Notes under the pieces: model-generated | The model's input: only the letters and a program-made list of their open reading frames with translations | The model's database searches: none | What the model was told of the DNA's origin: nothing | Program-made: the position numbers and the translations under genes | Part shown: piece by piece, positions 1-63,777 of the stretch | Layout: every line of letters starts with the position of its first letter | How positions within the stretch are numbered: the first letter of the stretch is position 1 | DNA from: Nitrosomonas mobilis | GTDB taxonomy: Bacteria > Pseudomonadota > Gammaproteobacteria > Burkholderiales > Nitrosomonadaceae | NCBI RefSeq assembly: GCF_900103035.1 | Contig: NZ_FMWO01000102.1 | Coordinates: forward strand, 1-64,000 | Length of the DNA: 64,000 nt | Direction: 5' to 3'

Positions 1-797
1 AACATGGATTCATCGCGCGTGGCGGTCAGATCATCGACGCCACGCTGGTGCCGGCGCCCAGGCAGCACAACAGCCGAGGCGAGAAAGGACTCATCAAGCA
101 AGGCGCGATGCCCGCCGACTGGAAGCCGGCGAAGCGGCGCCAGAAGGACACCGACGCGACCTGGACGAAGAAACACGGCAAGAGCCACTTCGGCTACAAG
201 CTGTCAATCAGTGTCGACAAGAAGCACAAGATCATCCGCCGGATTGAGACCGATACCGCCTCCACGCACGATAGCCAGCACTTTGACAACGTCTTTGACA
301 CGAGCAACACGAGTCGTGATGTCTATGCCGATCGAGGCTACCCGTCGGAGGAGCGCGAAGCCTGGCTCAAGGAGAACGGTTTCCGAAACCAGATTCAGCG
401 GAAGGGCAAGCGCAACAAGCTGCTGTCCGAGTGCCAGCAGCGACGCAACAAACGTATTGCCAAGACGCGCGCACGAGTCGAGCACGTGTTCGGCGCTATC
501 GAGCAGATGGGCGGCAAGTTGCTGCGCACTATCGGTCAGGCGCGGGCCAACTTTGCGATGACGATGGTGGCAGCCTGCTACAACCTGAAGCGACTGGTCT
601 ACTTCGAAGAGACAGGAATCAGGGCCTTGTGACACCCGAAATGGGCCTAATCGCCAATGTCCTGGGCGATTCGAGGTAAAAACGGCGCGACATCGCCAGG
701 AAAAGCGGCGATTTGTCATGGAAATCGAACCGAATTCGGCCGCGGTCATCATTTTGCGGCAGGATTTACTGAAAACCTCGGGTTATTCGAGGTGCCC
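1..797 (+). mobile_element. IS5-family insertion sequence, right part
   Basis: The element carries an IS5-type transposase and runs off the left edge, so its left end is not visible. The probable right terminal repeat, read inward on the other strand, is GGGCACCTCGAATAACC ending at about 797. Its first nine bases, GGGCACCTC, also begin the short mobile repeat found at 61215. The last coding triplets of the minus-strand gene at 766-1347 lie inside this end, so the element inserted into that gene. The exact end is inferred because the partner repeat cannot be compared. Confidence 0.75.
3..632 (+). CDS. IS5-family transposase, 5'-truncated by window edge
   Basis: This is the C-terminal part of a DDE (RNase H-fold) transposase of the IS5 group; the frame is open to the first bases of the window, so the start lies outside. 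Three catalytic acidic positions can be placed: the Asp in the reading GGQIIDATLVPAPRQ (about residue 12 of the visible part), the Asp in YADRGYPSEE, and the Glu in RARVEHVFGAIEQMGG near the C-terminus. The YADRGY and RVEHVFG motifs are typical of this family. The reading frame is intact up to its stop, so the visible part shows no decay. The protein would cut and join the element's terminal repeats, one of which is seen at about 797. Confidence 0.9.
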   Translation, partial: HGFIARGGQIIDATLVPAPRQHNSRGEKGLIKQGAMPADWKPAKRRQKDTDATWTKKHGKSHFGYKLSISVDKKHKIIRRIETDTASTHDSQHFDNVFDTSNTSRDVYADRGYPSEEREAWLKENGFRNQIQRKGKRNKLLSECQQRRNKRIAKTRARVEHVFGAIEQMGGKLLRTIGQARANFAMTMVAACYNLKRLVYFEETGIRAL

Positions 798-49429: not shown

Positions 49430-52400
49430 ATGATTATTACAGAGCAGGAACATTCGGATCAGCAAGAAAAAAACAGTCCTGCAGTATCACATGCCAAAAA
49501 ACCAGTGCAATCAAACAAAAAAAAGAATAGCCCAAATGCCGCAGCGCTCAAACAGCTCACCAATGACTTCAATCAAGGGTTATTGACGGAGGCAAAAGCA
49601 CTGGCAACCAATCTCACGCAAACCTTTCCCAAACACGGCATGGCCTGGAAAGTGCTGGGTGTTATTTATCATCACGAACAGCATATGGCGAAAGCGGGTG
49701 AAGCACTTAAAAAAGCGGTAACACTTATGCGAAAAGATGCCGAGGTGCACTATAACCTGGCCAATTTTTATTGTGATATCGATCACTTGGAAGCTGCGAA
49801 AGCCAGCTATCAAAAATCAATCAGGTTGGCGCCAGATTTGGCCAAGGCACATTTTAACCTGGCGTATGTATTGAAAGATCTGAAGCGGTTTGCGTCAGCA
49901 GAAGCAAGTTTCAAAAAAGGGCTGAAAATCGAACCGCGACACGCAAAGATCCATTTTCATTTGGGTCAGTGTCAGTATGCACAGAAACGATTCAAAGAGG
50001 GACTCAAGTCGTACCAAAAATCGCTTCAAATGGGTGTAAATGATGTGGATTTATATCTGCATCTGGCGCTAAGTCATAGAGCACTGGGCGATCTGGGGCA
50101 GGCTGAGCAATCTTGCCGTAAAGCGTTGGTAATCGATCCGCAGCATGCGGGTGCTTATAGCCACCTGGCCATCATATTAAGTGAGCAAGGCCATTTGCAG
50201 GAAGCGGAAGCTGCATGTTTAAGGGCCATAGAGCTGGACGCGGGCTATGTTGCAGCTCACAATAACCTGGGGCTGCTGTACAGGGATATGGAAAAGCCAA
50301 AAGAAGCAGAAGCCTGTTACAGGAAAGCACTCAGTATTCAGCCATCGAGCGTGGAAACCTTGAGCAGCATGGCTGCGTTGTTACTCAGTCAATATCGTTA
50401 TGTCGAAGCGGAAACCTATTGTAGACAGGCATTGGCACTGGATACCACCCGCAGTGACGTCTGGAATAATCTGGGCCTGATCTTGCAAGCCAGGAAGCTG
50501 GGTGAAGAATCACAGGAGGCTTTTGAAGAGGCTCTGGCTCTGCAACCTGATAATCCCGGCATGCTGTCAAATTATAGTGTGACGTTAAGGATGGTCGGTA
50601 AGTCAAGCGAGGCTGAAGCAGTCTTGAGAAAGGCAACCAAGCTGGATGATGGCCATGCCAATGCGTATTTGAATCTGGGTAACGTGTACCTTGATCAGGG
50701 GTTGGTTGAAAAGGCAATTGAAGCGGCCAAACAGGGCATGATGCTAGCTCCGGAGCGTCTGGGTGCCTATAGTAATTTATTATATTCAACCACCTGTTCT
50801 GAACAATATTGCCCAGAATTTCAGCTGAAATTTGCTCGCGAATTCGGATGCATTGTTTCACAAAAGGCAGATCAAAAATTTAACACCTGGCTGGTCAGTC
50901 CTAAAGATAAACGTTTACGTGTTGGCGTGGTTTCAGGTGATTTACGCCAGCACCCGGTTGCGTATTTTCTTAAAAATGTAATCCAACACATTAATTCCTC
51001 GAAAATTACGCTCGTTGCCTACTTGACGGATGGGCGTGTCGATTCTGTTAGCGGAGAATTAAGACCCTATTTTGCGGAATGGAAATCGCTGGCTGGACAG
51101 AATGACCAATCCACTGCGGAGATGATCCATGCCGATGGTATTCATGTTTTGCTGGATCTGTCTGGCCATACGGCCGGCAACAGATTGTCAATTTTTGCGT
51201 GGCAACCAGCGCCCGTGCAGGCCACCTGGCTCGGTTACTGGTCGACTACCGGCGTGGCAGAAATCGACTATTGTCTGACAGATGAAATAAGCTTACCCCC
51301 ATCATGCCAGACACAATTTACCGAAAAAATAAGATACCTGCCAAACACACGCCTGTGCTTCAGTGAGCCTGAGATTGCAGCTGAGGTCGCGCCATTGCCC
51401 GCGATGAGAAATGGATTTGTAACGTTCGGCTGCTATCAGCAGCTGGCCAAGGTGGGCGATACGGTGATGCAATTGTGGGGCCGGGTGATGCAGGCAATCC
51501 CCAATGCACGATTGCGCTGGCAATGTAAATCGTTCATCGATGAAGCCATTATTGCCGAAGTAAAAAGGCGCCTGCAGAAAAATGGTGTTGAAATCGAACG
51601 CATCAGACTGCTGGGGCAGGCATCGCGCGAGGCTTACTTTGTTTCCTATGCAGAAGTCGACATGAACCTGGACAGTTTTCCGTTTACCGGTGGCACGACC
51701 ACGTGTGATGCATTATGGATGGGCGTGCCGACCCTGACCCTGATTGGCAACACCATGATCGCAAGACAGGGCGCAAGCCTGATGACGGCAGCTGGCTTGC
51801 CCGACTGGGTTGCCATGAACCAGGCGGAATATGTAGAAAAAGCGATCTCGCTCAGTACAGATTTGACTGGACTTGCCGCATTGAGATCTGACTTAAGAGC
51901 GCGTCTAAAAACATCACCTTTATTCGATGGTGCGAGATTTGCCCGTCATTTTGAGACTGCTTTGCAGGAAATGTGGCAGGAAAAATGTACGATTCTTGCA
52001 AAAAAATTTGTTAAGGATACGCAATCCTCCACGGATGCACAAAACCCTGCCCAAAATGGAAATCAGCGAAACGTAGCAACGGCTATTGAAATCGTGAGCG
52101 CTACGCGCATGAGCGAACAAGATTTCTGGCAGCAGTCGGCATTGGGGCAGTCCCTTGCCCGTCATCTGACACAAGGCGCAAAATTCAAAATTAATGTGGC
52201 ATATGAAAACACGCTTGGTTTATCCGAAGTGTTCAATGCCGCCATTGCACAGGCAGAAGACGATGCCGTTCTGGTATTCGTGCATGATGACGTTTGGCTG
52301 GATGAGGCGGATATAGCCCAGGCAATTTTAAATGGCCTGGATAAATTCGATGTTATCGGTGTAGCTGGTAATAAACGCAGACTGCCCAGACAGCCTGCAT

Positions 52401-54493
52401 GGTGTTTTCTCGATACTCAGTTTACTTGTGATACGCATGACAATTTGAGCGGTAAAGTTGCGCATGGCCAATCTGCTTACGGAAAAGTCTCCGAATATGG
52501 TGACGTGCCAGCAGAGTGCGAACTGATAGATGGCTTGTTCCTGGCAGCCAGGAAACAAACCTTGATTGCCAGGCAAGTCACCTTTGATCCACAGTTCGAT
52601 TTCCATTTTTACGACCTTGATTTTTGCAGAACCGCCAGAAATGCTGGTTTGAGATTGGGCACCTGGCCTATTCAGTTAACCCATCAAAGTGGTGGCGCAT
52701 TTGGTACTCCTGCCTGGCAGAAAAAATACCAACAATATCTCGAGAAATGGGATGAAGCAGACGATTTCGATGCAATGTATGAGCAAGCACATGCGTATGA
52801 ACAGCAAGGCGAGATCGTCGCGGCAGCGCGCTTATACCACGTTATCTTGGAACATCGGCCTCGGCACCCGGAAGTGAATCATAGACTGGGTTTCATAGAG
52901 GCCCATACCTTGGGTGCTGAAACTGCATTGCCACGTTTCGAAGTGGCGGTGATGGCAAAACCGGGTGTTGAACAGTTCTGGGTGAGCTATATCGATGCCT
53001 TGATGATGGCGGGCAGAATTGATGAAGGACATTCTGCAATTAAACGCGGATTACAGAGTGGGCTGACAGCTGAGACCGCTGAAAAGCTCACAGCAGAATT
53101 TACGAAAAAAGAGCAAGCATTGAATGTGGCGGATATTCGGTATTCTGAGTCTAACAATGAACTTGCTCGCGCTTTTGAGCAAATGCTCAAGTGTAATATG
53201 GACGATATTCAGATGAGTATACAAACTGGCCAACCGATCTCGCCACATGTAGATGCAGCGTCGTTTGAAGGGATAATTTCAAAATTTGAGTGTGCGGGTC
53301 TTAAGGATGAAATATTGGCACTGATTTTTAAAGTCACTGCCAGTATCAAATTAATGTCAGATTTTGTTGGGCATAAAATTTACATACCGTATTTTGATCA
53401 GATTTTACAGGAGCTTGATCTGGAGATAAAAGATATCGTGCCACGCTCTAACAAATCCGCCAATGTAGTTATTGCAACCGAGATGTATGACTTTGGGGGT
53501 CACACTAAAGTTATTAAAGAAATTGTTGAGACGGTTGAAAATCCGATTGTAATTATCACGGATATCTATAATCGCTTTGCACGAAACAATATGTTTACCA
53601 AAGTAGCATCACAGTTCAGCCAATGCCCAATATTCATTTTACCGACAGATAACTATATTAATAATGCGCTCAGAATAGCCAAACTGATCAATAGTTATGC
53701 GAAGAACGTATTTTTACTGTCACATCATGATGATAGCGTGGCGATAGCTGCCTGCCAGAAAAACTTGGATGTGAACTATTATTTCATACACCATGCAGAC
53801 CATAATCCCGCTTTGGGCAGTCATATAAAGCATTTACGGCACGTTGATTTATTTGAGGAAAGGGCAAAACTTTGTTATGAGGATCTACAAGTCGATACGC
53901 AACTTCTGCCAACAACTGCGACAGATCAAGGTCAGAAATTATTCGAATATCCGGTCCAAGGTTACTCGACAGTCACGGCAGGTTCTTTTGGAAAGTTTTC
54001 AATGACTGGCCCGTTGAGTTTGCCGGACATCATTATTGAGTCCCTCAAAGTAACTGATGGTCGGCATTATCATTTCGGTGATATTCCTGATGAGCAATTA
54101 GCACATATTTCTCAGGCAATAGAGAGTGCTGGCTGTAATCCACATCAATTTATTTATAAAGGTAACGTTGCTTCCTTATGGCAAGCATTGTTGGAAATAG
54201 ATGCACATATTTACATCGGATCAGCGCCAATAATTGGTGCTAAATCTGCTATTGAGGCGCAAGGTGTTGGCTATGCGTTGTTAGCTTACAACCAGGAGAA
54301 TAGACCGCGGCACCTGAATATAGGTGGTCATAATTCTGATACGGTGTATTGGTCGAATATCGAGTCCCTTCGTGAAGGGTTATGGAAGGTGATGGTGAAT
54401 CATGCATATTATTCAAATGCAGCCAAAGCATTTTATGCCTCAAATTGTACAGTTAAAAAATTGCAAGAAACATTGCGTGTACTCGGTCAATAA
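49430..54493 (+). CDS. giant TPR / SPINDLY O-glycosyltransferase with two further glycosyltransferase-like domains
   Basis: A 1687-residue protein. Residues 1-38 are charged and probably disordered; 40-450 hold about twelve TPR units; 492-855 form a GT41 (O-GlcNAc transferase, SPINDLY) domain with RVGVVSGDLRQHPVAYF, LLDLSGHTAGNRLSIFA, QATWLGYWSTTG and GGTTTCDALWMGVPTLT. Residues 885-1105 resemble a GT2-type glycosyltransferase with an acidic HDDVW motif (952-956) and YDLDFCRTAR. Residues 1112-1230 hold more TPR-like helices, and 1344-1687 look like a GT-B fold (IATEMYDFGGHTKVIKEI). No signal peptide, so it is cytoplasmic. Stepwise addition of several sugars to a protein is inferred. It heads a seven-gene operon; the next gene starts 23 bases on. 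Confidence 0.85.
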   Translation: MIITEQEHSDQQEKNSPAVSHAKKPVQSNKKKNSPNAAALKQLTNDFNQGLLTEAKALATNLTQTFPKHGMAWKVLGVIYHHEQHMAKAGEALKKAVTLMRKDAEVHYNLANFYCDIDHLEAAKASYQKSIRLAPDLAKAHFNLAYVLKDLKRFASAEASFKKGLKIEPRHAKIHFHLGQCQYAQKRFKEGLKSYQKSLQMGVNDVDLYLHLALSHRALGDLGQAEQSCRKALVIDPQHAGAYSHLAIILSEQGHLQEAEAACLRAIELDAGYVAAHNNLGLLYRDMEKPKEAEACYRKALSIQPSSVETLSSMAALLLSQYRYVEAETYCRQALALDTTRSDVWNNLGLILQARKLGEESQEAFEEALALQPDNPGMLSNYSVTLRMVGKSSEAEAVLRKATKLDDGHANAYLNLGNVYLDQGLVEKAIEAAKQGMMLAPERLGAYSNLLYSTTCSEQYCPEFQLKFAREFGCIVSQKADQKFNTWLVSPKDKRLRVGVVSGDLRQHPVAYFLKNVIQHINSSKITLVAYLTDGRVDSVSGELRPYFAEWKSLAGQNDQSTAEMIHADGIHVLLDLSGHTAGNRLSIFAWQPAPVQATWLGYWSTTGVAEIDYCLTDEISLPPSCQTQFTEKIRYLPNTRLCFSEPEIAAEVAPLPAMRNGFVTFGCYQQLAKVGDTVMQLWGRVMQAIPNARLRWQCKSFIDEAIIAEVKRRLQKNGVEIERIRLLGQASREAYFVSYAEVDMNLDSFPFTGGTTTCDALWMGVPTLTLIGNTMIARQGASLMTAAGLPDWVAMNQAEYVEKAISLSTDLTGLAALRSDLRARLKTSPLFDGARFARHFETALQEMWQEKCTILAKKFVKDTQSSTDAQNPAQNGNQRNVATAIEIVSATRMSEQDFWQQSALGQSLARHLTQGAKFKINVAYENTLGLSEVFNAAIAQAEDDAVLVFVHDDVWLDEADIAQAILNGLDKFDVIGVAGNKRRLPRQPAWCFLDTQFTCDTHDNLSGKVAHGQSAYGKVSEYGDVPAECELIDGLFLAARKQTLIARQVTFDPQFDFHFYDLDFCRTARNAGLRLGTWPIQLTHQSGGAFGTPAWQKKYQQYLEKWDEADDFDAMYEQAHAYEQQGEIVAAARLYHVILEHRPRHPEVNHRLGFIEAHTLGAETALPRFEVAVMAKPGVEQFWVSYIDALMMAGRIDEGHSAIKRGLQSGLTAETAEKLTAEFTKKEQALNVADIRYSESNNELARAFEQMLKCNMDDIQMSIQTGQPISPHVDAASFEGIISKFECAGLKDEILALIFKVTASIKLMSDFVGHKIYIPYFDQILQELDLEIKDIVPRSNKSANVVIATEMYDFGGHTKVIKEIVETVENPIVIITDIYNRFARNNMFTKVASQFSQCPIFILPTDNYINNALRIAKLINSYAKNVFLLSHHDDSVAIAACQKNLDVNYYFIHHADHNPALGSHIKHLRHVDLFEERAKLCYEDLQVDTQLLPTTATDQGQKLFEYPVQGYSTVTAGSFGKFSMTGPLSLPDIIIESLKVTDGRHYHFGDIPDEQLAHISQAIESAGCNPHQFIYKGNVASLWQALLEIDAHIYIGSAPIIGAKSAIEAQGVGYALLAYNQENRPRHLNIGGHNSDTVYWSNIESLREGLWKVMVNHAYYSNAAKAFYASNCTVKKLQETLRVLGQ

Positions 54494-54516
54494 GGACGGA
54501 TGATGCAATCAGGTAT

Positions 54517-55446
54517 ATGAAAATTGTTCCTTATCAACAACAGAGAATGCTGTGGAACAACATGGTTGCGGTTAGTAGAAATGGAACATTTTTGCTGAAC
54601 CGATGTTACATGGATTATCACGCAAACCGTTTCAGTGACTGTTCCCTGATGATAGAAAAAAACGGTCGACTGGTTGCAGTGCTACCAGCCAATCGTGATG
54701 GTAATGCTGTCGTATCCCATGCTGGATTGACATTTGGTGGCTTGATACTTGCCGATAAAACAGGTGCTGCGGATGTCAAGATCATCTTTGAGCAGCTCAG
54801 AGATTGGTTGGTATCTTCCGGGGTCCGCAAACTAATCTACAAACCCATCCCTCATATTTATCATCGCATTTTCTGTGAAGAAGATTTGTATGCGTTGTAT
54901 TGCCTGGGGGCGAAAACGATTCGCGTAGATGTATCCACCACGATAAGACAAGCAACACGCTTACCGCTTGCAAAGGGCAGAAAGTATGCTACTGGCAGAG
55001 CCAGGAAGGCAGGGGTCAGTGTGCAAAAAAGTGATGATTACGTCAGTTTCTGGAAAATACTGACACAAAACTTGGCCGACAAGTATGCAGCTAAACCTAC
55101 GCACAGTCTGGAAGAGATGCAATTTCTGGCATCACGTTTTCCGCAAATTCAATTATATCTTGCATATCTTGCAAAACGACCCGTTGCTGGTGTCGTGGTT
55201 TATGACTATGACCAGGTGGCACACACCCAATATATTGGGCTAAATGATGATGCGCGTGAAACAGGTGCGCTCGATATGTTATTAGAGCACCTGATTTCAG
55301 AAGTATTTGTGCATAAACCTTATTTCAATTTTGGTGCTTCAACCTACAACCACGGTTTATCACTCAACGAAGGACTGGCTGCACAAAAAGAGATGTTCGG
55401 TGGCAGAACCACCATTTTGCAATGGCTGGAACTGGAGTTTGCGTGA
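54517..55446 (+). CDS. GNAT/FemAB-like acyltransferase
   Basis: A 309-residue protein of the acetyltransferase group related to FemAB (two GNAT folds). The central KGRKYATGRARKAGVSV and the later RPVAGVVVYDYDQVAHTQYIG, TGALDMLLEHLI and YFNFGAS segments are typical of this family in sugar-modification clusters. Judged by its neighbours, it may acylate the amino group of a 3-amino-3,6-dideoxyhexose. It could instead transfer an amino acid. The next gene begins at its stop codon, so it is part of the operon. Confidence 0.75.
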   Translation: MKIVPYQQQRMLWNNMVAVSRNGTFLLNRCYMDYHANRFSDCSLMIEKNGRLVAVLPANRDGNAVVSHAGLTFGGLILADKTGAADVKIIFEQLRDWLVSSGVRKLIYKPIPHIYHRIFCEEDLYALYCLGAKTIRVDVSTTIRQATRLPLAKGRKYATGRARKAGVSVQKSDDYVSFWKILTQNLADKYAAKPTHSLEEMQFLASRFPQIQLYLAYLAKRPVAGVVVYDYDQVAHTQYIGLNDDARETGALDMLLEHLISEVFVHKPYFNFGASTYNHGLSLNEGLAAQKEMFGGRTTILQWLELEFA

Positions 55447-55448
55447 GT

Positions 55449-56213
55449 ATGAGTAATCCGACGACAAGACAGCAGGAAATTGAAGCGTATCAGAGTGCGT
55501 ACTCTGCCAGTAGTTTTGAGGAGATGCAGGCCCGGTATCGCAAACGTTTGTTGCTGGAATTATTGGAACAGCGTCAACCCAAACGTATTCTGGAAGTTGG
55601 CTGTGGCTGGGACACCATCGCCAATGCCTGGCAGGGGTTCGAGCACCTATGTATTGTCGAGCCGGGCAGTAAATTTGCCGAAAAAGCTAAAAATGATGTG
55701 GCTCACAATAGCAATGTAAAGGTGGTGCGGGAATTTTTAGAAAATGCCATAGACGTATTGAAAGATAATTACGACCTGATTTTGTTGAGTAGTTTGTTGC
55801 ATGAAGTACCCGATGCTGAAGCTTTGTTATTAAGTGCTAGAGCCCTTTGTTCTGACCATACGTTGATTCATGTGAATGTGCCTAACGCAAAATCCCTACA
55901 TCGCTTATTGGCGTTAGAAATGGGTTTGATCAATAGTCTATGTGTCCCGTCAGGATTACAAAAAACCTTTAAACAGCCACGTATTTTTGATTTGCAAAGC
56001 TTAAAAGCTTTAGCCGTATTAACAGGTTTTGATGTCATGTCGGAAGGCTCTTTTTTTGTGAAGCCTTTCAGTCACGCACAAATGCACACACTGATGCAAA
56101 CAGGGTTTGCCACGCAAGCCATGCTGGATGGTTTATGGTCTTTGACTAAGCACTTCCCTGAACATGGATCAGAAATCTACATTAATCTTCAACGAAAGGA
56201 GTTTTTACCATGA
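55449..56213 (+). CDS. class I SAM-dependent methyltransferase
   Basis: A 254-residue protein with a Rossmann-type SAM site: motif I RILEVGCGWDTIANAW, then HLCIVEPGSKFAEKA and the post-motif LILLSSLLHEVPDAEALL. The target is unknown; methylation of the sugar made by this operon is a reasonable guess. Start at the ATG 55449; a GTG at 55443 is possible and would overlap the previous stop. Its stop overlaps the next start in ATGA form, so translation is coupled. Confidence 0.82.
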   Translation: MSNPTTRQQEIEAYQSAYSASSFEEMQARYRKRLLLELLEQRQPKRILEVGCGWDTIANAWQGFEHLCIVEPGSKFAEKAKNDVAHNSNVKVVREFLENAIDVLKDNYDLILLSSLLHEVPDAEALLLSARALCSDHTLIHVNVPNAKSLHRLLALEMGLINSLCVPSGLQKTFKQPRIFDLQSLKALAVLTGFDVMSEGSFFVKPFSHAQMHTLMQTGFATQAMLDGLWSLTKHFPEHGSEIYINLQRKEFLP

Positions 56214-57670
56214 CTACACACCACACTGTTATTGTAGGGAATGCATTGGCTGGCATGATTGCCGCATTGGAACTGGCAAAGCAGGGCAAACAAGTCACGC
56301 TGATAAACCCCGGAGGTCCATTGGGAGGTTATTTCGCAGGTTTGCAGATTGATGGTGTGATGTTTGACGCTGGCCTAGTGAAGTTTGAGTTGGATGGGTA
56401 TTTGAACCAAGCCAAGTGGTCTGAGCTTGCAAGCTATGACCCAACATTGCGCAATGATGTTGGTCGATTCTTGAAAATCGTACATGAATGGGTACAGAAA
56501 TATACCCCATTACACCAGATTGAGATGCCCAAGATGATGGTGGATGACGCGGTTTATGACGATGTGTTGCTCAGTAACGCCTACCATAGTTTTGGTCAGT
56601 TACCATTTGCACGGGATTGTATTGCGGAGTTGCAACAATTCCAAGCTAATGCTGCCACCCATGCAAGGCAGAAAGCGAAAGGAGACGCTTATGAAATCAT
56701 GGATTACGCCACTGCTTCCGTCGCTAACCACGGCAAAACCATGCATGAAAGACTGATAGCCTCTTATTTGCTGAAATCACAGGGTGTGAGCGCGGACCGT
56801 ATACTGGCGCGCTACCATCGTGTGGCGTGGTTACCGTTGTTTTATCCAGAAACCTTATTGGAAAGCTATCAAGGTAAACCTTGTCGTTTATCGCCCACCG
56901 TATTTCATTATCCAAAACGAGGTGGCGTGGGATCATTGGTCGGCAAGGTAAAAACAGAAATACTGGTGCATCCTAATATTCGTTATGTGACACAAGCGGT
57001 GCAACAAGTCAAAAAAACAGAAGAGGGGTGGCAAGTATGCTGTACCGAATCTAAATTACTTGCGACTGATCTGGTGTGGACGTATCAACCAATGCAATTG
57101 CTCAAATGTCTTGGGCTACAACCGATAACGGTACAGGAAACCAAATCGGCCATTGCGATTGCTTTCTTCCGTATCAGAAAGTCGGATATCCGTCATGTAT
57201 ATACTTTCCTGAATATCGTGGATTTGAATTACAGTTTGTACCGCATTACCAATCAATCCGCATGTGCTGATGATCGTGGTGATTTTATGAATATTGCTGC
57301 CGAGTTTAATGCTGATTACTTTCGTCGCTTGTACGGTGACTCTACGGATGACAAGTTCATTATCGAAAAGTTATTGGTTGAATTAGCGCAGATGCGACTC
57401 ATCACCGCAGATGCAGTTCCTGAGATTGCGCAAATCAAACGCGTTCCGGGCGGCTTCCTGGTGCCGGATAAGCAAGCGCGTGATGCTTGGGAGCAAAACC
57501 ATCGTACCATCATTCAGCATTATCCAGATGTTGCTTTATTGGCAATGTCAAGTGGTTTTTTTGCAACTTCGTTGAATGACCAGGTAGTACAAGGCTTGCA
57601 CTATGCTGCTACCCAGCAACATGTATTGCCGGTAGATTTTACTGACGAAGCTTTTGCGGCGACAGCATAA
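56210..57670 (+). CDS. FAD-dependent oxidoreductase (amine-oxidase/UGM-like)
   Basis: A 486-residue protein with an N-terminal dinucleotide fold (HHTVIVGNALAGMIAALELA) whose usual GxGxxG reads GNALAG, followed by GGPLGGYFAGLQIDG, the second flavin-contact region of protoporphyrinogen-oxidase and UDP-galactopyranose-mutase-like enzymes. The C-terminus ends in VALLAMSSGFFATSLNDQVVQGL, a flavin-binding closing motif. The substrate is unknown; a sugar nucleotide oxidoreduction or ring-form change is suggested by context. It overlaps the methyltransferase gene by four bases. Confidence 0.7.
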   Translation: MTTHHTVIVGNALAGMIAALELAKQGKQVTLINPGGPLGGYFAGLQIDGVMFDAGLVKFELDGYLNQAKWSELASYDPTLRNDVGRFLKIVHEWVQKYTPLHQIEMPKMMVDDAVYDDVLLSNAYHSFGQLPFARDCIAELQQFQANAATHARQKAKGDAYEIMDYATASVANHGKTMHERLIASYLLKSQGVSADRILARYHRVAWLPLFYPETLLESYQGKPCRLSPTVFHYPKRGGVGSLVGKVKTEILVHPNIRYVTQAVQQVKKTEEGWQVCCTESKLLATDLVWTYQPMQLLKCLGLQPITVQETKSAIAIAFFRIRKSDIRHVYTFLNIVDLNYSLYRITNQSACADDRGDFMNIAAEFNADYFRRLYGDSTDDKFIIEKLLVELAQMRLITADAVPEIAQIKRVPGGFLVPDKQARDAWEQNHRTIIQHYPDVALLAMSSGFFATSLNDQVVQGLHYAATQQHVLPVDFTDEAFAATA

Positions 57671-57809
57671 GAGTAAAAGCCGGATTTGGCAGGTGAAATC
57701 TATTTTCATCGGAGAAAACGTGCAATCTGGCATATGGGACGATGCAAAAGTGAAATGCTTTTACGTTAACCAAAGTCAATCGAGCAAAGCAAAATCAGAC
57801 GGAGCGTTT

Positions 57810-58223
57810 ATGCCATTAGAAGATTGTAAACTGATTGAGTTGCCTAAAATCAATGACCCACAGGGCAATTTAACCTTTGTGGAAAACAATTCGCAAATTC
57901 CCTTTGAAATTCAGCGCGTGTACTACGTGTACGACGTTCCGGGTGGAGCGGAGCGGGGAGGTCACGCACACAAAGGCTTGCACCAGTTTATTGTGGCGAT
58001 GTCCGGCAGTTTTGATATTACCCTGGATGATGGCCAGAACAAGCGCAAGTTTCATTTGGCGCGCTCATACTATGGCCTATATGTTTGTCCGATGATCTGG
58101 CGCGAAATTGATAATTTTTCCTCGGGTTCTGTGCTGATGTGTCTGGCCTCCAATAAGTACAGTGAAGAAGATTATTATCGCAAGTATGAGGATTTCATGC
58201 GTGCGCGCTGGGCGGCAGCCTAG
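57810..58223 (+). CDS. dTDP-4-oxo-6-deoxyglucose 3,4-ketoisomerase (FdtA/QdtA type)
   Basis: A 137-residue cupin that moves the keto group of dTDP-4-keto-6-deoxyglucose from C4 to C3. The two active-site histidines are His52 and His54 (ERGGHAHKGLHQF), with the characteristic end segments YGLYVCPMIWREIDNFSSGS and LASNKYSEEDYYRKYEDF. FdtA gives the galacto and QdtA the gluco epimer; I cannot tell which. The start 57810 follows a GGAGCG sequence and gives the normal length; the frame is open upstream to 57654 but that part has no family match. The next gene is the aminotransferase of the same pathway, 12 bases on. Confidence 0.9.
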   Translation: MPLEDCKLIELPKINDPQGNLTFVENNSQIPFEIQRVYYVYDVPGGAERGGHAHKGLHQFIVAMSGSFDITLDDGQNKRKFHLARSYYGLYVCPMIWREIDNFSSGSVLMCLASNKYSEEDYYRKYEDFMRARWAAA

Positions 58224-58235
58224 GCAGGTCAGTTT

Positions 58236-59333
58236 ATGATTCCATTTTTAGATCTGAAAGCAGCCTATCATGTGCTGGCCAGTGAGCTGGACGAGGCGGT
58301 ATTGCGCGCCAGCCGATCTGGTCAGTATATTGGTGGTGCAGAGGTAAAAAATTTTGAAGCGCTTTATGCAAGCTATGTTGGGGCAAAAAATTGTGTTGGT
58401 GCAGGCAATGGCCTTGATGCGTTGATTCTGGCCTTACGAGCGTTAGATATCGGAACAAACGATGAGGTAATTGTGCCTTCGCATACTTATATTGCCACTT
58501 GGCTGGCAGTCAGTGCGGTTGGCGCAACACTGGTACCTGTCGAGCCAGCTTCAGGGCGTTATGTGCTCGATTCCTTTGACATTGCACCCCATATCACAAG
58601 CCGTACTAGAGCCATCATGCCCGTCCATTTATACGGGATACCTGTCGATATCGAAGGAATCTGTTCGCTTGCCAGGCAACATAATTTATATGTGATTGAA
58701 GATGCGGCACAGGTCCATGGCGCAACCGTCAATGGCCGAAAGATCGGCTCACACGGTGACGCCGTTGTGTGGAGTTTCTATCCTGGAAAAAACCTGGGTG
58801 CTTTGGGTGACGGCGGTGCTGTCACTACAAATAATGATGACTTGGCGCAACGCATCCGTATGCTGGCCAATTATGGTTCCGAGGTGAAATACTACAATCT
58901 GGAGCGAGGTATCAACAGTCGCCTCGATCCGATACAGGCCGCTGTGCTGTCGGTGAAACTGAAATACCTGGATCAATGGAATATGCGGCGTCAGGAAATC
59001 GCACAGCGGTATCAAGCCGCTTTTGCAGGTTTACCTTTGGATTTGATCGATGTACCTCAGCATGTGTCTGCCGTCTGGCATCAGTATGTCGTGAGAACCC
59101 CGAAACGCGATGATTTACAGACGAAGTTGACAAGGGCGGGTATCGAAACCTTGATTCATTATCCCGTCCCCCCCCATTTGCAGCAGGCCTATGCTGATTT
59201 GAATGTTCGTATTGCTTTACCAGTGGCAACACGCTATGCAAAAGAAGTTCTCAGCTTGCCCATTAGCCCGCATCTGGCGACAGACAGCGTTGAAAAGATC
59301 ATAACCGCAGTACGTCGGTATTTCGGTGGCTAA
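58236..59333 (+). CDS. dTDP-3-amino-3,6-dideoxyhexose aminotransferase (FdtB/QdtB type)
   Basis: A 365-residue PLP enzyme of the DegT/DnrJ/EryC1/StrS family. Lys185 in [18 protein letters not shown] forms the Schiff base; [20 protein letters not shown] and [16 protein letters not shown] are family landmarks. It aminates the 3-keto sugar made by the preceding isomerase, giving a dTDP-3-amino-3,6-dideoxyhexose. It starts PFLDLKAAY, as do FdtB-type enzymes. Its last eight bases overlap the next gene. RmlA/RmlB, needed to make the precursor, are not in the window. Confidence 0.92.
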
Positions 59334-61038
59334 GGCTTCACAGGACTTCATGGTGATGGCTCCACCTGCTGATCAGCAGGTGGAAGCGCTCATTCAATTG
59401 TTTATGTCAAAACAATATCATGAACTTGAGACGCAATTACATGCCCTGCTAAACTATTTCCCAGACTGGCTCATTGGCTGGAAAATCTTGAGTGACACCT
59501 ATATGGTGCAGAAAAAGGATGCACGGGAAGCTGCCTATCGAGCCTTGCAATTGAATATGCAGGACCCGAAAGAGCATTGCTATTATGGTCTGGTGCTCAA
59601 ATCTCAGAGCGATCTGCATGGTGCTGCAGAGGCGTTCGAGCAGGCTATTCGGCTAAAACCGGATTATGTTGCCGCAATCAATAATCTTGGAATCGTCAGA
59701 AAAGATCTCGGTGATGTACAGCAAGGGATTGCTTATTTTACACGGGTATTACAGCTTGACCCATCTTACGCGAGCTGCTTCAGTAATTTGTTGTTCTGTT
59801 TAAGCCACAATGACACAGCAGATGGCGATACCTTATGGGATATGCACCGCAAGTTTGCCGAGTTTTATGAAGCCCCGGTTAAATCGCGTTGGAAAAAACA
59901 TGCCAATTCACGAGTGCCAGGGCGAGCGTTGAATATAGGTTTTGTCTCTGCAGCGTTCAGAGAGCATTCACTGAGTAACTTCTTTGAACCAGTGCTTCCC
60001 TTTCTGGCGCAATCAGCAGAGCTCAGTTTGCATGCCTATGCCGCATCAACAATAGAGGACGACACCACGGCAAGATTGAAAACTCATTTCAAATGCTGGC
60101 GGACAATCGACCGGTTAAACGATCTGGAGCTGGCAGATATCATCCGGCAGGATCAAATAGACATCCTGCTGGATCTGGATGGACACACCTCCGGTAATCG
60201 CCTAACCATGTTCGCACTCAAGCCTGCTCCCATCCAGGTAAGCTGGCTTGGATATCTGGCCACCACCGGTTTGACTGCCATGGACTATTACATCGGCGAC
60301 GTCTATCTGAACCCTCCTGATTTTTTGGATAACCAATTCAGCGAAAAATTGATACGGCTTCCGGTGAATGCCCCGTTTCTGCCGGAAGATAATGCGCCAG
60401 ATGTGAATACGCTGCCTGCGCTCAACAATGGACACATAATGTTTGCCTGTTTTAACCGCATCAATAAAATCACACAAAGTACGGTCTGCTTGTGGAGCGC
60501 CATTCTAAAACAGATACCAACGGCCAAACTGTTACTGATTGGGGATTTGCAAAGCAACAATCACCGCATTATATTTGACTGGTTTAAACAGCAAGGCATC
60601 AATATGGATCGTTTCATCATGATGCCCAAGGCTTCTTTGCAAGACTACCTGGCATTGCATCATCGCGTCGATATCTGTCTGGATACCATGCCAGCCAGTG
60701 GCGTGACGACCACCTGTCATGCAGCATGGATGGGGGTGCCGACATTATGTATAGCGGGCGATCGCATGATCAGCCGGGGAGCGGCAGCGATCATGCGGCA
60801 TGTGGCTCTGGGTGATTTTGTGGTGAATGATGCCGAGTCCTATGTCAGACAGGCATGTTATTTCACAAAACATTTGATTTTGTTGAACGATGTAAGGCAG
60901 CAGCTCAGACAACGCTTCAAAGCTTCATTACTAACGCAGTCAGCACAAAGTGCTGGCGCTTTAAAATCCGCATTCAGAATCATATGGAAGCGCTGGTGTG
61001 CAGATAAGCAGGCTAAATCCGTCATGATCAATCATTAA
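59326..61038 (+). CDS. TPR-SPINDLY (GT41) protein O-glycosyltransferase
   Basis: A 570-residue protein. Residues about 20-155 form four TPR units ([19 protein letters not shown], then [18 protein letters not shown]). Residues 200-560 are a GT41 domain with [54 protein letters not shown] and [18 protein letters not shown]. The most probable start is the GTG at 59326, overlapping the aminotransferase gene by eight bases; ATG 59350 is an alternative. It is a smaller relative of the giant protein that begins the operon, so the locus encodes two GT41 enzymes. It probably glycosylates Ser/Thr of cytoplasmic proteins. Confidence 0.9.
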
Positions 61039-61261: not shown

Positions 61262-62854
61262 CTACTGTTTTAGTGATTGAATGAACGCTGGTGTTAACGG
61301 CAGTAGTTCATCGATGCGGTTATTGGGCCAGGTAGGGAGTTTGGTGAGGGTATCTGCAAGCCATGCGGCGGGGTCCAGGCCGTTGAGTTGTGCGGTGCCG
61401 AACAGAGTTTGAATGACGGCGGCGCGTTGACCGGCGCGCTCTGATCCGGTAAACAGCCAGTTCTTTTTGCCGATTGCGATCGGGCGAATAGTATTTTCCA
61501 CCGGATTGTTGTCGATTGGCAGATGGCCGGTTTGCGCGTAGCGGATGAGCGCTGGCCAGCGTCTGAGAATGTAGTCCAGTGCCTTGGCGGAGCCACCGCC
61601 GTTTGCGGTTTGGCTGCGGGTTTGCATCAACCAGTCATGCAATGCATGGAGTGCGGGCAGGCTTTTATCTGCGCGCAGCTGCTGGCGGTCTTCGATGCTC
61701 AGGTGTTTGCCTTCTGCTTCGATGGCGTATAAGGCGCTGATGCGCTGCAGTGCTTCCCATGCCATTCCACTGGCATTGGCCTGATGCAGGTCGAAGAATT
61801 TACGCCGCGCATGCGCCCAGCACCCCAGTTCGATGCAGGGAGAAGCGGCTGCGGAAAACAGGGCTTTGTACCCGGCATAGTCGTCGACCAGCAGATGTCC
61901 TTGCCAGTTTTGCAGAAAGTGCTGTGCATGCCGGCCACTGCGACCGGCTTGATAGTCGAAGACGATGATGCGCGGTCCGGGCTCAAGATCATTGCTGCGA
62001 TAGGCCCACAGGTAAGCTTTGCGGGTTTTGCCTCCACCCGGATCGAGTTGTGCCACCGGCGTTTCATCCACATGCAGCGTGCTGCCCTGCAACAAGTGCC
62101 AGGCCAGACGATCCGCCAGCGGTTGCAGGGCAAAACCGATGCGGCCTACCCATTCGGCTAGGGTGGAACGGGACAAGGTTACCTGTTCGCGGGCGGCAAT
62201 CTGTTCCAGGCGGTAGAGCGGCAGGTGATTCAGGTATTTGTTTGTTATCACCCAGGCAAGCAGGCCGGGGGCGGCCATGCCGCCATCGATGACTGCCGGC
62301 GGTACGGGTTCTGCGATGACGGTCTCGCAGGATTGGCAGGCGTATTGAGGGCGGATGTGACGGTGAACGAAGAATCTGGCAGGCTCCACGTCGAGCTGCT
62401 CGGTGATGTCTTCGCGGATTTTGACCAGATCACGACCACATTGACCGCATTGACAGGAGGCGGGTTCATGCCGGTGCTCGATGCGCGGCAGGTGATCCGG
62501 CAGCGGTTGACGGCCGGCACGTGACCGCTGCGATTTAGCGGTATCCGCTTTGAGCGTGCTATCGAGCTGCTCGATTTCCACTTCGATGGCAGCGATATCG
62601 GGCAGCATGGATTCTTCAAACAGGCTGAGTTGGCTGGGGGATAGCGCCGATAATGCTTCGTTTTTCTTGCCAAAGCGGATGCGGCGCAGATGCGCCAGTT
62701 CCAGAGTGAGCGCCTGGATTTTGGTTTCCTGAAAATGAATCGTCTGCTGTGCTTGCTGCGACTGATTGAGTAGCAACGCCTGAACCAGATCGACCACCTG
62801 CAGTTTGGTGTCGGCATCGAGGTTCAGTTGATCCAGTTGCGTGAGCAAATTCAT
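61262..62854 (-). CDS. tnpC: IS66 transposase TnpC
   Basis: A 530-residue DDE transposase. A leucine-rich coiled coil (about 1-60, ending in LRRIRFGKKNEAL) precedes a zinc-finger-like domain (CQCGQCGRDL, later ACQSCETVI) and the catalytic core. Catalytic positions lie in LHVDETPVAQLDPG, LLVDDYAGYKALF and NNPVENTIRPIAIGKKNW. Full length and intact. It acts with TnpA and TnpB, encoded upstream. Confidence 0.96.
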   Translation of the reverse strand: MNLLTQLDQLNLDADTKLQVVDLVQALLLNQSQQAQQTIHFQETKIQALTLELAHLRRIRFGKKNEALSALSPSQLSLFEESMLPDIAAIEVEIEQLDSTLKADTAKSQRSRAGRQPLPDHLPRIEHRHEPASCQCGQCGRDLVKIREDITEQLDVEPARFFVHRHIRPQYACQSCETVIAEPVPPAVIDGGMAAPGLLAWVITNKYLNHLPLYRLEQIAAREQVTLSRSTLAEWVGRIGFALQPLADRLAWHLLQGSTLHVDETPVAQLDPGGGKTRKAYLWAYRSNDLEPGPRIIVFDYQAGRSGRHAQHFLQNWQGHLLVDDYAGYKALFSAAASPCIELGCWAHARRKFFDLHQANASGMAWEALQRISALYAIEAEGKHLSIEDRQQLRADKSLPALHALHDWLMQTRSQTANGGGSAKALDYILRRWPALIRYAQTGHLPIDNNPVENTIRPIAIGKKNWLFTGSERAGQRAAVIQTLFGTAQLNGLDPAAWLADTLTKLPTWPNNRIDELLPLTPAFIQSLKQ

Positions 62855-62916
62855 GGCACGGATTATACCGTGAATTTACGCATAACCAACTGTTAATCAA
62901 TTATTATTTGCTGTTC

Positions 62917-63267
62917 TTATACCCGAAAATGCGGTGGTGGCAAAACCGATAACCGCCGCCAGTCTACCCCGGCAATCAGCCATTCCCACTGCGATGGAGT
63001 CAACTCGACACACGCCTCCCCCTGCTTTGGCCAGACGAACCGCCCCTGATGCAAACGGCGCTGGCATAGCCACACCCCCGTACCATCCCACAGCAAAACC
63101 TTGATGCGATTCCCTGCACGGTTGCAAAATATGAAAGCTGAACCCGCACAGGGTGGATGCCCCAAACCCTGCTGCACGATCATCGACAAACCATCGATGC
63201 CACGACGCATGTCCACCGGATCGACCGCCAGCCAGATCTGTCCGGCATGCCCAATCAGTCCAGGCAT
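62917..63267 (-). CDS. tnpB: IS66 accessory protein TnpB
   Basis: A 116-residue protein of the IS66 Orf2 family, needed for transposition but of unknown activity. The family signature VDMRRGIDGLSMIVQQGL and IFCNRAGNRIKVLLWDGTGVWL is clear. Its start overlaps the end of tnpA by 13 bases, fitting translational coupling. Confidence 0.95.
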   Translation of the reverse strand: MPGLIGHAGQIWLAVDPVDMRRGIDGLSMIVQQGLGHPPCAGSAFIFCNRAGNRIKVLLWDGTGVWLCQRRLHQGRFVWPKQGEACVELTPSQWEWLIAGVDWRRLSVLPPPHFRV

Positions 63268-63563
63268 GATAATAACTTTCCGGGCCAACGCGGCGAAACA
63301 CTCATCGGCAATTCCAGCACATGAATGCCACGACAGCGTAGCTGCAACCTTTCCACGGACTCTACCAACCCAGCCGCCGGCTTGACCGTAACCGGAATCA
63401 ACGCGGGAGACTTGATAGCATGCTTTTCCCCACGCCGCTTTGCACGCAACCAATTGCCAAACGTCTTCGCATTCAACCCGTGCGCCCTGCAATAAGCAGC
63501 CTGCGACAAACCACTTGCCTGCCAGTCACAGATATGCTTTTGTTGATGATCTTGCAATGCCAT
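63255..63563 (-). CDS. tnpA: IS66 accessory protein TnpA
   Basis: A 102-residue IS66 Orf1 protein. MALQDHQQKHICDWQASGLS, then AYCRAHGLNAKTFGNWL, form the helix-turn-helix typical of TnpA, which probably binds the element's ends. The start at 63563 follows a GGAGGATATCC sequence. Upstream open frame to 63707 is outside the element and not part of the protein. Confidence 0.92.
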   Translation of the reverse strand: MALQDHQQKHICDWQASGLSQAAYCRAHGLNAKTFGNWLRAKRRGEKHAIKSPALIPVTVKPAAGLVESVERLQLRCRGIHVLELPMSVSPRWPGKLLSCLD

Positions 63564-63644
63564 TGGATATCCTCCAGTAAAGTAACGAAGAGGATGGTAA
63601 TGTGGAAAATCATGATTGCGTAGATGGAAGGGCTGGACGGTTAC

Positions 63645-63777
63645 TAAAAATTCATATTTCGTCGTAATACTTCGTTGCTCACAAAAAAATGTTTCCTTAC
63701 ATATCAATTATATGCTGCGTCAACATTTTTTACTCGCGCCTAGTCTTGCTTAGAACTCTGAATTTTTAGAGACGCTC
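63645..63777. repeat. short non-coding mobile repeat split by the IS66 element
   Basis: Removing the IS66 element and one target copy joins 61215-61231 (GGGCACCTCTAAAAATT) to this segment, giving a unit of about 142 bp. Its right end, CTGAATTTTTAGAGACGCTC, is an imperfect inverted repeat of the left end. It has no coding capacity. A diverged copy lies at about 12860-13010, and the first nine bases match the IS5-family end at 797. It looks like a MITE. Confidence 0.65.

Follow-up and report, generated by a model that had tools for sequence, protein, structure and literature searches.

A putative protein O-glycosylation cassette combining SPINDLY-type glycosyltransferases with amino-sugar enzymes in Nitrosomonas mobilis

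The genome of Nitrosomonas mobilis (3.08 Mb, 112 contigs) encodes a seven-gene operon at positions 49430-61038 (+ strand) of the first 64 kb of the 118-kb contig C7, the stretch analysed here and hereafter called the window. The operon combines two SPINDLY-type (GT41) glycosyltransferases with FdtA- and FdtB-type sugar enzymes, an acyltransferase, a methyltransferase and a flavin adenine dinucleotide (FAD)-dependent enzyme. It probably represents a horizontally acquired cassette for the O-glycosylation of proteins, flagellin being the likely target, whereas the ring form of the sugar and the order of the steps are proposed with lower confidence. The main support comes from related loci in other genomes, 14 of 36 of which have a flagellin gene in the analysed stretch.

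Gene content and catalytic domains

All seven reading frames are intact, lie on the same strand and show operon-like spacing after rechecking of starts and stops, with gaps of 23 bases between GT1 and ACY, 139 between the FAD enzyme and FdtA and 12 between FdtA and FdtB, and overlaps of 4 bases between MT and the FAD enzyme and 8 between FdtB and GT2. The ACY-MT junction is an overlap if MT starts at 55422 and a gap of 2 bases if it starts at 55449. The features are as follows.

49430..54493, + strand: GT1, 1687 aa; TPR repeats, SPINDLY-type GT41 domain, GT2-like domain, TPR stretch and GT4-like GT-B domain
50864..51946, + strand: GT41 catalytic domain of GT1; best relative in the PDB is SPINDLY
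52205..52660, + strand: GT2-like domain of GT1 (Glyco_tranf_2_5, residues 926-1077)
53447..54490, + strand: C-terminal GT-B domain of GT1, without Pfam match; a homologue adjoins sugar genes in 16 of 36 related loci
54517..55446, + strand: ACY, GNAT/FemAB-like acyltransferase, 309 aa
55422..56213, + strand: MT, S-adenosylmethionine-dependent methyltransferase; start at 55422 or 55449
56210..57670, + strand: FAD enzyme, flavoenzyme with a UDP-galactopyranose-mutase-like fold in a predicted model, 486 aa
57810..58223, + strand: FdtA/QdtA-type dTDP-sugar 3,4-ketoisomerase, 137 aa
58236..59333, + strand: FdtB/QdtB-type pyridoxal-phosphate-dependent aminotransferase, 365 aa
59326..61038, + strand: GT2, second GT41 protein; TPR repeats and SPINDLY-type GT41 domain, 570 aa, GTG start
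61262..63707, - strand: IS66-type transposon genes bounding the operon, named by reading; outside the pathway

This gene set agrees with a preliminary description of the same DNA, which had recognised the seven-gene cluster, two SPINDLY glycosyltransferases, FdtA- and FdtB-type enzymes and the three remaining enzyme classes; Pfam supports each of these assignments, those of the acyltransferase and the FAD enzyme through weak matches only. TPR repeats and a GT41 catalytic domain score above the family cut-off in both GT1 and the GT2 protein, as in SPINDLY and bacterial OGT. Arabidopsis SPINDLY (SPY) is the top match among solved structures for the GT2 protein (E 2.1e-93) and for the GT41 part of GT1 (E 1.8e-91). 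The GHT and NKI/AKV motifs of the two domains line up with GHT and AKI of SPY and keep the catalytic-region His and Lys of GT41. In contrast to SPINDLY and OGT, one copy (GT1) carries on the same chain two additional glycosyltransferase domains missed by the preliminary description, one GT2-like and the other, at the C-terminus, GT4-like with a GT-B fold. Such a GT41-GT2-GT-B fusion would offer a compact means of placing a whole oligosaccharide onto a protein in the cytoplasm.

FdtA (Pfam, 191.8 bits) has the structures 5tpu, 7n67 and FdtA 2pa7 as its closest relatives and keeps the catalytic-site motifs in alignments, and FdtB (DegT aminotransferase family, 361.4 bits) is closest to 2oga, 7b0d and QdtB 3frk. 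The equivalents of positions 97 and 17 of FdtA are Arg and Gln, compared with His and Arg in FdtA 2pa7. These two residues bear on Qui3N/Fuc3N stereochemistry, and QdtA has Arg97; either sugar may be the product. ACY shows a weak match to Acetyltransf_6 (29.4 bits, cut-off 22), and a search of solved structures with its profile gave no match at E values up to 0.1. The best solved structure for the MT profile is 2p7h, a hypothetical protein.

Related loci and their proximity to flagellin genes

A scan of genome contigs yielded 36 loci encoding relatives of the FAD enzyme; 17 of the 36 stretches are shorter than 20 kb, so that genes missed at these loci partly reflect missing DNA. Across the genus a single genome of 85 encodes the FAD enzyme, and across the order six of 399 do, counting N. 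mobilis itself. Its closest relatives (78-79% identity) come from a betaproteobacterial metagenome-assembled genome (MAG) and from two genomes of Methylophilus or Methylophilaceae, followed at 26-45% by further Methylophilaceae and Burkholderiales, Pseudomonas, Halopseudomonas, Blastococcus, a Frankiales MAG, Conexibacter and three Bacteroidota MAGs. Three genomes, of which two carry a Methylophilus/Methylophilaceae label, keep the order ACY-MT-FAD-FdtA-FdtB, with identities of 67-93%. Among the 36 loci, MT homologues are present in 34, FdtA in 30, FdtB in 28, ACY in 17, the GT-B domain in 16 and GT41 in 12 (incomplete at the end of L037). A core of MT, FAD enzyme, FdtA and FdtB recurs in beta- and gammaproteobacteria and in actinobacteria. 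Chance clustering is implausible, as the gene order is conserved far from the N. mobilis genome, and the operon can be viewed as a conserved, movable module ranging from actinobacteria to proteobacteria instead of a guess from seven gene names.

The closest relatives (L026-L028), with GT1 homologues of 1980 aa in L026 and 1989 aa in L027, lack the GT-B domain. In L026 its position is occupied by a GT61 domain and an additional GT2 domain, and the homologue of L028 is split over two open reading frames (ORFs). The domain composition suggests that transferase modules have been swapped within one polypeptide.

A flagellin gene lies within the analysed stretch of 14 of the 36 loci, and in six of these a GT41 gene is situated between flagellin and the core, which supports cytoplasmic glycosylation of flagellin. 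If two flagellin clusters are assumed for every 3.6 Mb, a simple calculation places flagellin near 0.35 of 36 loci by chance, a figure that overstates the significance because the loci are partly near-duplicates (e.g. L031/L032, L045/L046 and L036/L042); kinship among them makes an exact probability meaningless. In a Lautropia MAG (L040), the core is located between flhD and flhB, as named by eye from the ORFs of L023, the same locus. L050, a locus of Halopseudomonas oceani, encodes rmlBACD (named by eye) and a FemAB-like acyltransferase, followed by MT and the FAD enzyme and then by a 1440-aa GT2 protein and flagellin. Flagellin was detected in 32 of 35 carrier genomes (L049 left out) compared with 136 of 200 genomes of the order.

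Several observations, like the near-duplicates above, weigh against flagellin as the target. The Flagellin_N matches of the N. mobilis genome are confined to contigs C36 and C34, with none on C7. No flagellin was found in the 21-kb stretches of L026-L028, and in Methylophilaceae bacterium 11, the carrier of L027, it lies about 1 Mb from the locus, if the contig numbering matches. As a control, 18 FdtA loci (at least 53% identity; five stretches shorter than 17 kb) were taken from genomes of the order without a match to the FAD enzyme: 14 had no flagellin in the stretch, while four did, one of them together with GT41 (L098). The FAD enzyme is consequently not needed for the flagellin link, and FdtA/FdtB beside flagellin is a wider pattern. 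Furthermore, three loci labelled Bacteroidota (L035, L043 and L051) carry FAD relatives in genomes without a flagellin match, where the module may serve another acceptor; two of these also have MT homologues. As the locus is not beside flagellin in N. mobilis or in its three closest relatives, we infer flagellin as the target from the remaining loci. The cytoplasmic protein modification with a 3-amino-3,6-dideoxyhexose put forward in the preliminary description is partly supported: it fits the 14 loci with flagellin, but in N. mobilis the operon lies away from flagellin.

The same observations bear on protein O-glycosylation with a different main target, such as a pilin, a protein that is secreted or sits in the outer membrane, or several proteins of the cytoplasm. 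SPINDLY and OGT relatives modify many proteins in eukaryotes, which, along with the distance from flagellin here and in L026-L028 and the three Bacteroidota-labelled carriers, speaks for such a target. We nevertheless regard it as unlikely in view of the 14 loci with flagellin and of a genus mate (G450) in which two GT41 genes are found within about 7 kb of fliC-fliD-fliS (L112). GT41 is encoded by 22 of the 85 genus genomes, and L112 is the one locus with flagellin among 13 GT41 loci from 12 of them. It shows no FdtA/FdtB match in 18 kb and suggests that a simpler flagellin system based on GT41 exists in the genus.

In N. mobilis, the flagellin gene on C36 is accompanied by genes read as fliD and fliS and encodes 272 aa (L008:9837-10655), while the best flagellin matches listed for five genus mates (G006, G036, G141, G180 and G217) lie in open frames of 399 to 596 aa; its variable middle region looks reduced in comparison.

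Proposed pathway and the role of the FAD enzyme

Gene content, protein families, predicted folds, conserved gene order and the closeness of flagellin in relatives are what the analysis shows; the substrates, step order, ring form and target given below are deduced from them. In the pathway we propose, RmlB, encoded elsewhere in the genome on contig C29, would supply dTDP-4-keto-6-deoxyglucose, FdtA would shift the keto group to C3 and FdtB would aminate C3, yielding dTDP-3-amino-3,6-dideoxyhexose (Qui3N or Fuc3N). ACY could then acylate the amine and MT methylate the sugar, and the FAD enzyme would act on the nucleotide sugar. The SPINDLY-type GT41 domains would place the first sugar on Ser/Thr of a TPR-held cytoplasmic protein, the GT2-like and GT-B domains of GT1 would extend it with the amino sugar, and the modified protein, most likely flagellin, would leave the cell through its own secretion system, rendering a lipid carrier, flippase and polymerase unnecessary.

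The absence of these three components from the cluster, noted in the preliminary description, is largely borne out. Flippase family PF01943 matches contigs C12 and C61 only and thus not C7, and Pfam detected no lipid-carrier enzyme in the operon. No wzx/wzy genes were recognised by eye among ORFs of at least 90 and at least 150 aa across window positions 1-64000, no polymerase family having been searched. A wzx/wzy set just beyond the window, named there as evidence for polysaccharide synthesis, was likewise not recognised by eye among ORFs of at least 130 aa in C7:63400-80000, with C7:80001-118202 outside this reading. That the enzymes make a sugar for lipopolysaccharide, capsule or exopolysaccharide, with the GT41 proteins as passengers or separate, is supported by the PF01943 gene on C12 and by the known roles of FdtA/FdtB. 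Both enzymes serve O-antigens. They also serve the S-layer glycan of Aneurinibacillus, as reported in PMC5109656. The missing PF01943 match on C7, the single protein of this operon in which GT41 is fused to a GT2-like and a GT-B domain, and the linkage of the core to flagellin in relatives make this explanation quite improbable.

The FAD enzyme has weak matches to FAD/NAD-binding Pfam families, none of which covers the protein well, and the fold of its predicted model most resembles UDP-galactopyranose mutase (UGM). On the basis of this model it most likely acts on a nucleotide sugar, with ring contraction to a furanose as the leading idea. A profile alignment against six UGMs is full-length at 16% identity and places R345 at UGM R278, and Trp and Phe at R170 and R174.

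Other results count against a mutase. The UGM family Glf (which we take to be PF03275) was not among the eight Pfam families matching any of the 36 FAD proteins at E 0.01. The full-length alignment needs all six UGMs: with E. coli Glf as the sole reference the alignment is poor and confined to the N-terminal part, at a probability of 19. The profile test covered UGMs only. R278 is the only one of six arginines invariant in the six UGMs that meets an invariant residue of the FAD family. In addition to its low identity (about 16%), the missing family match and the unmatched remaining arginines, the FAD enzyme differs from Glf in its His residues H174, H179 and H203, which are invariant or nearly so.

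An oxidase or dehydrogenase acting on the amino sugar or acyl group, with chemistry like that of protoporphyrinogen oxidase (PPO) or amine oxidase, is a serious possibility, though we rate it somewhat below an even prospect. It would account for the single matched UGM arginine, for weak NCBIfam matches, among them PPO and phytoene desaturase types, and for the nearly tied Foldseek E-values of PPO and UGM, a PPO model being the top match. This alternative concerns one step and is compatible with a flagellin cassette.

A bolder version of the proposed pathway, which we consider rather doubtful as a whole, is that the FAD proteins are new dTDP-amino-sugar pyranose/furanose mutases, that the cassette product is an acylated, methylated 3-amino-3,6-dideoxyhexofuranose unseen on flagellin, and that the 1687-residue GT1 both starts and finishes the glycan on a TPR-held acceptor in assembly-line fashion. 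If the FAD enzyme were indeed a mutase, nucleotide-sugar ring contraction would extend to 3-amino sugars, and furanose amino sugars would be predicted on flagella. The UGM-fold FAD enzyme and the unnamed GT-B transferase represent two uncharacterised families open to in vitro assay.

Comparison with known systems and origin of the operon

The flagellin glycosylation islands of Enterobacteriaceae share several features with the N. mobilis operon. According to the main text of the survey (De Maayer and Cowan, 2016; PMC4875605), 198 of 307 island-bearing strains have SPINDLY-type GT41 genes and 242 of 307 have aminotransferases, which are of DegT types and include one named FdtB. At least 133 strains must therefore combine GT41 with an aminotransferase in one island, a figure that refers to the aminotransferases in general and not to FdtB itself. 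AdoMet methyltransferases and horizontal transfer are further common features, and galactofuranose genes are described in one island type. These islands lie between fliC and fliA, unlike the N. mobilis locus, and each strain uses one glycosyltransferase family, whereas GT41, GT2-like and GT-B domains are fused here. The UGM-fold FAD enzyme and the FemAB-like acyltransferase are not among the island genes in the sections compared, and the term "FAD" is absent from the main text; supplementary gene lists were outside the comparison.

Type B flagellin of C. difficile RT027 carries N-acylated Fuc3N, as shown by nuclear magnetic resonance (PMC5207245). This glycan resembles the one proposed here in its terminal N-acylated 3-amino-3,6-dideoxyhexose and O-linkage, with N-acetylglucosamine as the first sugar, and an FdtB homologue and an acyltransferase are shared. 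In the available part of that source, the system differs by lacking FdtA and by its peptidyl-taurine cap, and no FAD enzyme is mentioned. A flagellin island of the Gram-positive Geobacillus sp. PSS1 encodes FdtA and FdtB without FdtC, and another Geobacillus island contains UDP-galactopyranose mutase (PMC5109656, main text, from which the terms "SPINDLY", "TPR" and "oxidoreductase" are absent).

With SPINDLY GT41 islands (PMC4875605), an FdtA and FdtB island (PMC5109656) and Fuc3N on flagellin (PMC5207245) already published, as far as the available text of these sources goes, this kind of system is known and the novelty claimed in the preliminary description is weakened. Searches of the open-licence literature on the MT-FAD-FdtA-FdtB core, Nitrosomonas flagellin glycosylation and a furanose 3-amino sugar on flagellin found no description of the core in titles or openings of abstracts. 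Two protein families (the UGM-fold FAD enzymes and the unnamed GT-B transferases), the trio of ACY, MT and FAD enzyme, and the fused GT1 are apparently undescribed in the literature covered. Transferase and sugar genes are clustered and flagellin is present in the N. mobilis genome, yet flagellin adjoins the cluster at the 14 related loci and not here. We therefore describe the locus as working like a flagellin glycosylation island without classing it as one.

The presence of the locus in a single one of the 85 genus genomes, together with about 79% identity to Methylophilaceae, makes horizontal acquisition probable, against which stands a weak contrast in GC content. When the dnaX regions of nine genus mates were compared with eight proteins flanking the island, dnaX alone was matched, and no empty insertion site could be defined. 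The single occurrence and the IS66-type genes directly downstream would also fit an island that has decayed or fallen silent and travels with the neighbouring IS66 element, but all seven frames are intact and the FdtA and GT41 catalytic-site motifs are kept, which leaves this explanation very improbable. Transposase genes are found near both ends of the window, read as IS5-like at 3-632 (+ strand) and as IS66-like at 61262-63707 (- strand), the latter directly bounding the operon.

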